Shown: one piece after another, positions 39,018-46,090 of the stretch
How the letters are laid out: each line of letters starts with the position of its first letter
Position numbering within the stretch: the first letter of the stretch is position 1
Origin: Magnetococcales bacterium
GTDB lineage: Bacteria; Pseudomonadota; Magnetococcia; Magnetococcales; JADGAQ01
Assembly (NCBI GenBank): GCA_015231925.1
Contig: JADGAQ010000011.1
Location: 1-47,421 of the forward strand
Direction of reading: 5' to 3'
Length of the DNA stretch: 47,421 bases
Translations under genes and position numbers: made by a program
The notes under the pieces: generated by a model
Databases searched by the model: none
Told to the model about the DNA's origin: nothing
The model's input: the letters and a program-made list of their open reading frames with translations, nothing else

Positions 39018-39044
39018 GACCTACTTTTGACTTTCAATATGTTG

Positions 39045-39149
39045 CCTTTAAAGTATCAAAAAAAGAAAATGTTCTATTCTTTGACTTTATCTATTTCCGT
39101 TAAATAAATTATATTATATAAAACCAAACAACAGAAAAAGTCAAACAGG
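39045..39149. mobile_element. Degenerate copy of an AT-rich inverted-repeat element (MITE-like)
   Basis: This stretch shares TATCAAAAAAAGAAAATG, GTTCTAT and CTTTGACTTT (39054-39089) with the left arm of the element at 44762-44938, and has a similar AT-rich centre. Its right arm is reduced to AAAAAGTCAA followed by diverged bases (39135-39149), where the histidine kinase ends. The kinase stop codon lies in this remnant arm. It sits between the convergent ends of nnrS and the kinase. It contains no coding sequence. Confidence 0.65.
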
Positions 39150-40469
39150 AAAGCGCAGGCTGATACTCAACCCCCCCAACCCCGCCGAGTCCCCCAAAAC
39201 CAGCTCCGCCTCATGCAGTTTGGCGATGCGCGCCACAATGGAAAGCCCCAGTCCGCATCCGTAGGAATCGGTTGCCGCACCCCGTTTGAAGGGCTGCAAC
39301 AGGGTCTCCCGCTCCGCTTCGGGAATGCCCGGTCCCGAATCCTCCAGCCGGAACAGAACTCCCGACTCCCCCCCTTGCAGCACGGCCTGAATCCGGCCTC
39401 CCTGTGGCACATAGCGAATGGCGTTGTCCAACAGGTTGCGGAACAAAATGGCCAGCATGGCCTCTTCTCCGACGATGCGGAACGGCGGATCGATCTCCTC
39501 CAGGGAGATGTCGATCTGTTTTTCCAGTGCCAGATGGACCAGTTCACCCAGAACCTGTTTGAGCGGCGTTTCCAGTGAGACGATGGCCGTGCCCTTTTCG
39601 GTGATATTGGGTTCCAACCGCGCCAGGGTCAGCAGTTGGGCCACCAGGTGGGTGGCTCGGTCGCAGCCGACCAGAATCTGCTTCAGGGCGTTGTCGCGCT
39701 CGGCGTCGTTGCGGGCCCGCACCGCGACCTGGGCCTGAATGCGCAGACTGGCCAAAGGGGTGCGCAGTTCGTGGGCGGCATCTGCGGTGAAACGCCTCTC
39801 CCGCTCCAGGGTCCGGTCGACACGGGACATCATCTCGTTGATGGCGGACAACAGAGGCTGAATCTCCTGGGGACCGCTCGGCGCAATGGGAGTGAGTTGC
39901 CGACAGGAAAGACCGGCAATCTCATGGGAGATGCGGCTCAGGAAGGATAATTGCCGCCCGATGAGGTGCCACAGCACCCACCCCAGAAGCGGCAAAGCCA
40001 CCAGCAGGGGCAGCAGCACCTGCAGCAGAATGCGATCGGTGAGTTCGTTGCGTACCCGATAGCTTTCGCCCACCTGGATGGCATGGCCGTTATCATCGGA
40101 GGCGAGGTGAAAGATGCGCCACTGCTCTCCATCCATCCACCGGTCGGAGAACCCCGCTTTCAGGGAGAGAGGGGCCTCGGGCATGTTGGGGGAACGCATG
40201 ATCAGCCGGTTTTCCCGCCAGATTTGGAAGGCGATTTTCTTTTCGTACCGGTGCCCGTCACCATCGTTGCCCGCGAGGGAGGGCATGGTTCGGGAGGCGG
40301 GGTCGTGGGTCAATCCGTCCAGAACCCGAGCGGCTTGGGCCAGTTGGGCGTCGAAAAGCTCCTCCACCTCGTGCCGGGCGCGAACATAGGTCAGAAGCCC
40401 GATGAGAAGCCAGATGACCAGAAACGCCGACAGCACCACCTCCAGCAGATTGCGACGGATGGAGACCAT
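39141..40469 (-). CDS. Sensor histidine kinase, QseC/PmrB-like
   Basis: 442-residue membrane sensor kinase. Two membrane helices (about 11-28 and 148-170) flank a periplasmic domain of roughly 118 residues. HAMP-like sequence, a HisKA domain with phospho-acceptor His233 (DAAHELRTPLASL) and a HATPase domain (NLLDNAIRY; EDSGPGIPEAE; GCGLGLSIV) follow. ATG 40469 begins one base after the regulator stop; an in-frame ATG at 40490 inside the regulator would add seven residues. The input signal is unknown; divalent cation or envelope-stress sensing is typical of relatives. Its stop lies in an AT-rich repeat remnant. Confidence 0.93.
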   Translation of the reverse strand: MVSIRRNLLEVVLSAFLVIWLLIGLLTYVRARHEVEELFDAQLAQAARVLDGLTHDPASRTMPSLAGNDGDGHRYEKKIAFQIWRENRLIMRSPNMPEAPLSLKAGFSDRWMDGEQWRIFHLASDDNGHAIQVGESYRVRNELTDRILLQVLLPLLVALPLLGWVLWHLIGRQLSFLSRISHEIAGLSCRQLTPIAPSGPQEIQPLLSAINEMMSRVDRTLERERRFTADAAHELRTPLASLRIQAQVAVRARNDAERDNALKQILVGCDRATHLVAQLLTLARLEPNITEKGTAIVSLETPLKQVLGELVHLALEKQIDISLEEIDPPFRIVGEEAMLAILFRNLLDNAIRYVPQGGRIQAVLQGGESGVLFRLEDSGPGIPEAERETLLQPFKRGAATDSYGCGLGLSIVARIAKLHEAELVLGDSAGLGGLSISLRFPV

Positions 40470-44691: not shown

Positions 44692-44720
44692 CGATCCGGT
44701 TGTGACAGCAGTACCGAAGA

Positions 44721-44744
44721 AGCGGGCCGCGAGGCCCGCTTTTT
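44721..44744 (+). terminator. Intrinsic terminator after sodB
   Basis: AGCGGGCC (44721-44728), loop GCGA, GGCCCGCT (44733-44740) and a T-run to 44744 form a classic Rho-independent terminator 29 bp after the sodB stop. Confidence 0.92.
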
Positions 44745-44761
44745 GCGGTGGAGGGCAGATT

Positions 44762-44938
44762 CCTTTTAATATTTTATCTTTTAACTATCAAAAAAAGAAA
44801 AATGTTCTATCCTTTGACTTTCTTTCTCCTGTATAAAATGAGTCCACAAATATTATAGATATATAAAAGAGCAAATAAAAAAAGTCAACGGACAGAACAT
44901 TTTCTTTTTTTGATAATTAAAAGATAAAGATTAAAAGG
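44762..44938. mobile_element. AT-rich MITE-like element with long terminal inverted repeats
   Basis: 177-bp element, strikingly AT-rich against GC-rich neighbours. The left arm (44762-44825) and right arm (44877-44938) are reverse complements with about five mismatches and two single-base indels. Each begins CCTTTTAAT and contains TATCAAAAAAAG and TGTTCT. The 51-bp centre has TATAAAA-like runs but no coding potential. A related sequence lies at 39045-39149. No clear target duplication can be defined; AT occurs near both ends. The right end abuts the glycosyltransferase gene and could supply its promoter. No transposase is present, so it would have moved in trans. Confidence 0.75.
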
Positions 44939-44983
44939 ATGCTGCTACCTCGTTGCCGTTTAGCCACTCCCTCGGGAAGAGAC

Positions 44984-46090
44984 GTGAAAATAGCCCTGGT
45001 TTCCACCGGACACGGTCGCATTCATCGCGGATTCGAGGCCTTTACCGGCAGTCTGTTCGAGAATCTGCGCCGCCGGGTTCCCGATCTGGATGTGACCCTC
45101 TTCGCCGGTGGCGGTGAGCCGGAAGAGCGGCGAGTGGTGGTGCCGAACCTGCACCGCCACGACCTTCCCGCCCGCTGGTTCGGGGAGTTCCGCGCCAATC
45201 TGCTGGAAAAACGCTCCTTCGCTCTCGCGATCTACGCCCATCTTCGCCGGGGCGGCCATGATCTGGTGCATTACAACGAACTGGTCATGGGCAGCGCCCT
45301 GTTTCATCTGCGGCGTCGTTTCGGCGGCCATTTCAAGCTGCTCTACTGCAACGGTGCGCCATCCCCCGCAGTGCATTACCACCATCGCTGCGACTACGCC
45401 CAGCTTCTGACGGGTCCGGGATTCGAAGAGGCGGTGAGCTTCGGCATGGAGGCCCGACGCCTCTTTCTTTTGCCCTACGGCCTGGACGCGGACCGGTTTC
45501 ACCCACGCACGGCCCTAAGCCGGGAAGCCGTGCGGCGGGAGTTGGGCATTCCGCCCGAGGCGGTGCTGGTGCTGACGGTGGCGGCGTTGAAGCGCGAACA
45601 CAAACGCATCGACTACCTGCTGCAGGAGATGGGCGGATTACCGGAGCGTTACTGGCTGGTGGCGGCGGGGCAGCGCACGGGCGATACCCCGGCGCTGGAG
45701 GAGGAGGGGCGGCGTCTGCTGGGCGACCGCTTCCGCTTCCTGACCTGGCCTGCGGAGCGTGTGGCCCTGCTCTACGGCGCGGCGGACCTCTTCGTGCTGT
45801 GTTCCCTGACCGAGGCCTTCGGACTGGTGACGGTGGAGGCGATGTTGTCGGGTGTGCCGGTCATCGCCCATCGTGGACCGGTCTACCAGTGGCTGGCGGA
45901 AGGAACCGGGGCGCGACTGATCGACATGGCGCAAGAGGGGCGCTTGCGGCAGGCCATTGCGGAAATGCCGCAGGCCCTGCCGACAAGGGAACGGGAGGAG
46001 GCGGCCTTCCGGCGCTTCTCCTGGGAGATGCTGATTCGGGAGTATGTGGCCATGTACGAATCCGTTTGCAGCGGATCACCTCTCTCCTGA
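44984..46090 (+). CDS. Glycosyltransferase family 4 protein
   Basis: 368-residue GT-B fold glycosyltransferase with retaining GT4-type features. The N-terminal domain starts MKIALVSTGHGRIHRGFEAF. The C-terminal donor domain has LTVAALKREHKRIDYLL and the EX7E motif in EAFGLVTVEAMLSG (two Glu eight residues apart). GTG 44984 is preferred: it has GGGAAGAG upstream and gives the canonical N-terminus. An in-frame ATG at 44939 overlaps the inverted-repeat element. The acceptor is unknown; a role in cell-surface glycan synthesis is inferred from the convergent GT2 gene. Its 3' end overlaps that gene by 15 bases. Confidence 0.92.
   Translation: MKIALVSTGHGRIHRGFEAFTGSLFENLRRRVPDLDVTLFAGGGEPEERRVVVPNLHRHDLPARWFGEFRANLLEKRSFALAIYAHLRRGGHDLVHYNELVMGSALFHLRRRFGGHFKLLYCNGAPSPAVHYHHRCDYAQLLTGPGFEEAVSFGMEARRLFLLPYGLDADRFHPRTALSREAVRRELGIPPEAVLVLTVAALKREHKRIDYLLQEMGGLPERYWLVAAGQRTGDTPALEEEGRRLLGDRFRFLTWPAERVALLYGAADLFVLCSLTEAFGLVTVEAMLSGVPVIAHRGPVYQWLAEGTGARLIDMAQEGRLRQAIAEMPQALPTREREEAAFRRFSWEMLIREYVAMYESVCSGSPLS

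Follow-up and report, generated by a model that had tools for sequence, protein, structure and literature searches.

The 47,421 nucleotide stretch of Magnetococcales DNA analyzed here (the window) contains, between a superoxide dismutase gene and a gene for a GT4 glycosyltransferase, an imperfect palindrome at positions 44762-44938. As read from the sequence, it is composed of a left arm of 64 bp (44762-44825, + strand), an AT-rich centre of 51 bp (44826-44876) that has no counterpart in other copies, and an inverted right arm of 62 bp (44877-44938, - strand), and the two arms are reverse complements of each other except for 5 mismatches and 2 indels. A repeat search recovered the arms as three ungapped pieces, and the arm profile introduced below matched them at 44765-44819 and 44883-44932. 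The GC content of the element is 34-36%, versus about 60% around it. Folding of the + strand gave -59.9 kcal/mol (z -11.6) and folding of the - strand gave -73.2 kcal/mol (z -12.9); for neither strand was any of 200 shuffles equally stable. Together, the sequence, the repeat search, the GC content and the folding bear out the long, AT-rich reverse-complementary arms described in an earlier note on this DNA, and confirm that the inverted repeat is real and highly non-random.

Directly upstream of the element, a separate GC-rich hairpin followed by a T-run (44717-44746, + strand) is probably the intrinsic terminator of the superoxide dismutase gene; a terminator consensus scan, which applies its own loop and stem rules, had no entry for this hairpin. 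The earlier note also placed the element against the 5′ end of the glycosyltransferase gene and suggested that it may supply promoter sequence there. An ATG at 44939 does abut the right arm, but the glycosyltransferase is likely to start at a GTG near 44984, about 45 bp from the arm, because codon statistics and a Shine-Dalgarno-like sequence (GGAAGAG) favor this position. The promoter suggestion found no backing, since promoter-like sites were not above chance (one, versus 0.6 expected). The window harbors a second member, a single left arm at 39033-39086 (+ strand) located between the convergent genes for an NnrS family protein and a histidine kinase. Judging from its letters, AAAAAGTCAAACAG at 39133-39150 (- strand) is probably the truncated remnant of the right arm that was paired with it, and a TTTGAC in this putative remnant seems to supply the TGA stop codon of the histidine kinase gene.

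The palindrome belongs to a large dispersed repeat family that has at least about 170 copies in one genome. The source assembly is a draft MAG of 4.51 Mb in 358 contigs that is 97% complete, and BLAST against it gave at least 88 matches when 40 of 294 candidates were scored. The 20-base arm core TATCAAAAAAAGRAAATGTT, with at most 2 mismatches, occurs in this genome at 352 sites (179 on one strand and 173 on the other), and the reversed pattern at none. When an arm profile was applied to 2.19 Mb read directly, a sample that covers 48% of the draft MAG and is enriched for matches because it was partly picked for them, 283 arms were found, and none in reversed sequence. Neighboring arms in this sample that lay no more than 900 bp apart were in '+-' order 103 times and in any other order 7 times. 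The unit is formed by two facing, inverted, AT-rich arms of 54 bp around an unconserved centre, which in the facing pairs of the sample measures 21-786 bp (median 72), and the density of elements across the sample is uneven. Arms are also present at or near several contig ends of the source assembly (G000), for example at the starts of C46, C51, C53 and C56, so that part of its fragmentation may stem from the repeats of this family. In a class of elements with longer centres, the centre holds a GC-rich repeat family that is also widespread outside arms. This second palindromic family, of the GGGTCCAGGGCAGCGCCCTGGGAC type (for example at L040:5001-5410 and in longer centres), gave 222 matches in the 2.19 Mb, of which 40 fall between paired arms and a further 42 are at most 400 bp away from an arm. 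A third kind of repeat, GC-rich and with multiple hairpins (GGCGGGCTCGCTTTTTGGCC type, L037:5890-6170), is located beside some single arms.

The arm core is absent from 46 of 47 other Magnetococcales genomes. The only other member of the order that has it is the public MAG Magnetococcales bacterium nNGHbin13 (G008), where it is found on just two contigs, L105 (G008:C153) and L106 (G008:C253). Elsewhere this MAG contains a second pyrB, 77% identical, and a second gspE homologue, and the source genome gave no match to pyrB, and none to gspE that exceeds about 50% identity. Because the MAG holds these duplicates and the source genome is without them, the two repeat-carrying contigs are most likely mis-binned pieces of the lineage of the window. 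Apart from such contigs, a scan of GTDB contigs produced only isolated short matches (Patescibacteria, Bacilli) in which the rest of the arm was missing. The earlier note took the difference in composition as a sign of foreign origin; no viral contig that was searched carried the repeat. Rfam gave nothing for the element at gathering thresholds; its matches by E-value were mostly AT-rich microRNA models, far under their thresholds, and were rejected. No description of such a repeat was found among the papers searched that name Magnetococcales, repeats and transposition.

A pyr locus on a contig that we take to be mis-binned has elements in the pyrR-pyrB gap (216 bp) and in the pyrB-pyrC gap (438 bp), the latter containing three right arms in head-to-tail tandem. 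The tandem of three right arms at L105:2872-3037 is exact, with a 54 bp unit, and the motif TTTGACTTT is present at both ends of each of its arms; at about 2617-2640 of L105 the start of an arm is nested inside another arm. Among 12 relatives that share this gene order, 11 have a pyrB-pyrC gap of -6 to 14 bp and one has a gap of 122 bp, and the median length of their pyrR-pyrB gaps is 65.5 bp; 128 kb of relatives' loci yielded no arm. The pyrB-pyrC element is thereby shown to be inserted where relatives have an empty site. At the locus of the window's own element, the glycosyltransferase was not found beside the dismutase in the relatives' loci. A target-site duplication was not detected at 68 element pairs, whichever offset or length was considered (best z 2.2).

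The earlier note had read the palindrome as MITE-like and mobile, the alternative being a structural element present just once and kept at the same place in every relative. The additional copies in the source genome, the nearly complete absence of the core from the order (the exception looking mis-binned) and an empty site in relatives, although for the pyrB-pyrC member and not for the window's own, all agree with mobility. A classical MITE is the main rival of the reading that we prefer; it would have arisen by deletion from a DDE insertion sequence, and the transposase of the latter would move it as double-stranded DNA by acting on its terminal inverted repeats. The family resembles MITEs of DDE insertion sequences in that its many dispersed copies are small and non-coding and have long terminal inverted repeats; in addition, a relic centre is common to some copies, and an insertion is seen in the pyr gene cluster. 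The MITE label fits less well with the missing target duplications and with the unshared centres, and the transposase with the same ends that the note called for did not come up: a search for four Pfam families gave one DDE_Tnp_1 match and four rve matches in the source genome, and the flanks fetched for these five loci (about 1.5 kb) contained no arm. Nor did this genome give a match to TnpB or to PF01797 (Y1/RAYT), although the latter search was positive in five controls, among them E. coli. The arm variants are moreover in linkage equilibrium without subfamilies, and the two arms covary at the same positions (see below), which a double-stranded transposon does not need. With target duplications and subfamily structure missing, and centres unshared, this rival is weakened, and we consider it unlikely. 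Two spans of 2 kb between facing arms, L065:9184-11236 and L084:1552-3810, hold a gene pair for an AAA_21 ATPase and a DUF4276 protein and a gene with weak resemblance to MvdD-type ATP-grasp genes. The idea of a cargo transposon was put aside, as two cases can be accounted for by independent neighboring elements.

The arms deviate by about 7% from their consensus, very unevenly: conservation reaches 99% or more at 21 of the 54 positions, and polymorphism is 40-50% at a few others. Within an arm, the variable sites assort freely (median r2 0.002, that is, linkage equilibrium), no subfamily structure is apparent among arm variants and no recent parent-daughter pair was seen among copies. The centres, on the other hand, are mostly unrelated between copies and nearly all unalignable. 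A relic core was nevertheless detected in 15 of 135 centres and in none of 1234 controls, and copies that have it show 23% divergence in the core and 7% in the arms. The relic core implies that the copies share, at least in part, a common ancestor element, and the difference in divergence implies that the arms, and not the centre, are constrained or corrected. At conserved positions, divergence is higher in single arms (3.8%) than in paired ones (2.5%; p 0.006, weakening to p 0.06 when all positions are counted), a relation that Bertels and Rainey predicted and saw in 2011 for REPIN singlets and doublets (PMC3116915). Uneven conservation and freely assorting variants would also suit binding sites of a chromosome-organizing or other sequence-specific DNA-binding protein, kept by purifying selection and immobile today. 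However, several hundred lineage-specific sites require a copying mechanism, the covariation by pairing described next is unexpected for duplex sites and the density of elements is uneven, and we regard this reading as highly improbable.

Agreement at the same position between the two arms of an element amounted to 4680, versus 4629 +/- 12 after permutation, and none of 2000 permutations reached the observed value. The covariation is restricted to the diagonal and to positions 10-35 (r 0.16-0.39; off-diagonal mean 0.003, sd 0.11), with none at arm positions 45-55 or at position 4, and is strong for elements with centres of up to 100 bp (283 versus 239 +/- 6) and weak for longer centres. Since shared ancestry alone would link neighboring sites too, the covariation is explained by pairing in a stem, acting through selection or through hairpin-templated correction. 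Covariation confined to the diagonal, in arms whose variants assort freely, is a clean sign of hairpin-dependent evolution, and it supports the conclusion that the hairpin forms in vivo.

The position of the elements relative to genes was counted with a simple codon-based gene caller. Divergent gaps are avoided (5 of 155 elements, versus 176 of 643 element-free intergenic gaps, p 3e-13), convergent gaps are enriched (54 of 155 versus 68 of 643, p 4e-12), and in 71 of the 96 co-directional cases the element is nearer the stop codon of the upstream gene. In 83 of 156 cases a stop codon is found no more than 30 bp away from the element; its distance from the arm is often 8-19 bp, and at times the stop seems to be provided by the arm. 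The same bias to 3′ ends is shown by REPs (PMC3733652). All 10 informative co-directional elements with a 7-nt inner-arm deletion have it in the promoter-proximal arm (p 0.002, one post hoc test), whereas relic centres are unoriented relative to transcription (8:5), a hint that, for the transcript, the promoter-distal arm is the more important one. These observations raise the possibility that the family is, whatever its origin, an RNA element selected at 3′ ends, for instance as a bidirectional terminator or as a hairpin that stabilizes transcripts or is cut by RNase III, in which the A-tract of the arm, the stem and the U-tract would act on the transcripts of the upstream gene. Its location right after stop codons and away from promoter regions, the stronger stem covariation with short loops and the one-sided inner deletion are all in line with this. 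Loops of 21-786 nt are not, and neither is the element inside the pyrBC gene pair, which is tightly packed in relatives. Canonical terminators beside elements are not rarer, and this and the loop lengths do not fit an intrinsic bidirectional terminator, whose GC-rich stem would have a short loop, precede a U-tract and take the place of other terminators. A preference for G-U pairs on the sense strand was discarded: it was suggestive at positions 35 and 45 only, was not significant in the outer stem and is in the inner stem partly an alignment artefact of the deletion variant. We judge an RNA element to be an improbable explanation of the family, and a function at RNA 3′ ends to be possible as a secondary role.

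The copy number, the paired architecture, the 3′-end location, the empty insertion site and the arm covariation incline us, with a little more confidence than doubt, to view the family as REPIN-like, that is, as non-autonomous mobile palindromic repeats that are unrelated in sequence to known REPs; the lack of a detected target-site duplication, the relic centre and the greater divergence of single arms count in favor of this as well. The missing covariation at arm positions 45-55 and at position 4, and the failure to see a recent parent-daughter pair among the nearly unalignable centres, count against it. Like REPINs or REP doublets (PMC3116915), its members have two arms that are inverted and conserved, with a spacer between them that is less so, form hairpins, are extragenic, occur in hundreds of copies that are mostly doublets with more diverged singlets, and show compensatory changes. 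Its arms, however, are 54 bp long and far more AT-rich, compared with roughly 20-40 bp for REPs, its centres are almost entirely unshared, no RAYT was found and the arm consensus has no GTAG/CGTC tag. The element behaves as a REPIN but is not classed as one, because RAYT and tag are both missing. It also resembles the REP/BIME elements downstream of genes (PMC3733652) in its preference for convergent and unidirectional gaps, its closeness to stop codons and its occasional supply of a stop. From these it differs in sequence, length and composition, and in having no association with a Y1 transposase. ERIC and Correia (NEMIS) elements are similarly imperfect palindromes of at least 100 bp, intergenic, present in many copies and likely co-transcribed with neighboring genes; their sequences are unrelated to the family, and they have a more conserved internal region instead of two arms around a free centre.

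Under the REPIN-like reading, two sequence-constrained inverted arms of 54 bp would act as one unit that folds into a hairpin and is transposed in that form. The unit would have reached at least about 170 sites in this Magnetococcales lineage, with copies either inserted or tolerated immediately 3′ of genes. Once in place, a copy would lose its centre to decay or replacement, and the arms would be kept by base-pairing constraint or hairpin-templated correction, and also through sequence-specific recognition by a putative enzyme acting in trans. A more specific version, which we put forward only tentatively and think rather unlikely in its entirety, is that an enzyme other than a RAYT recognizes the 54-bp AT-rich arms and copies the hairpin repeats, the loop being either not copied or not preserved, and that copies are recruited as oriented 3′-end elements in which the promoter-distal arm must stay intact.

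The family described here is a large, apparently undescribed population of intragenomic repeats in magnetotactic bacteria that has the architecture of REPINs but no RAYT, and that differs from known REPs in its arms and composition. Its placement at 3′ ends makes a role at transcript ends testable. If the REPIN-like reading is true, then either REPIN-like spread needs no Y1 transposase or such populations are able to outlive their transposase.
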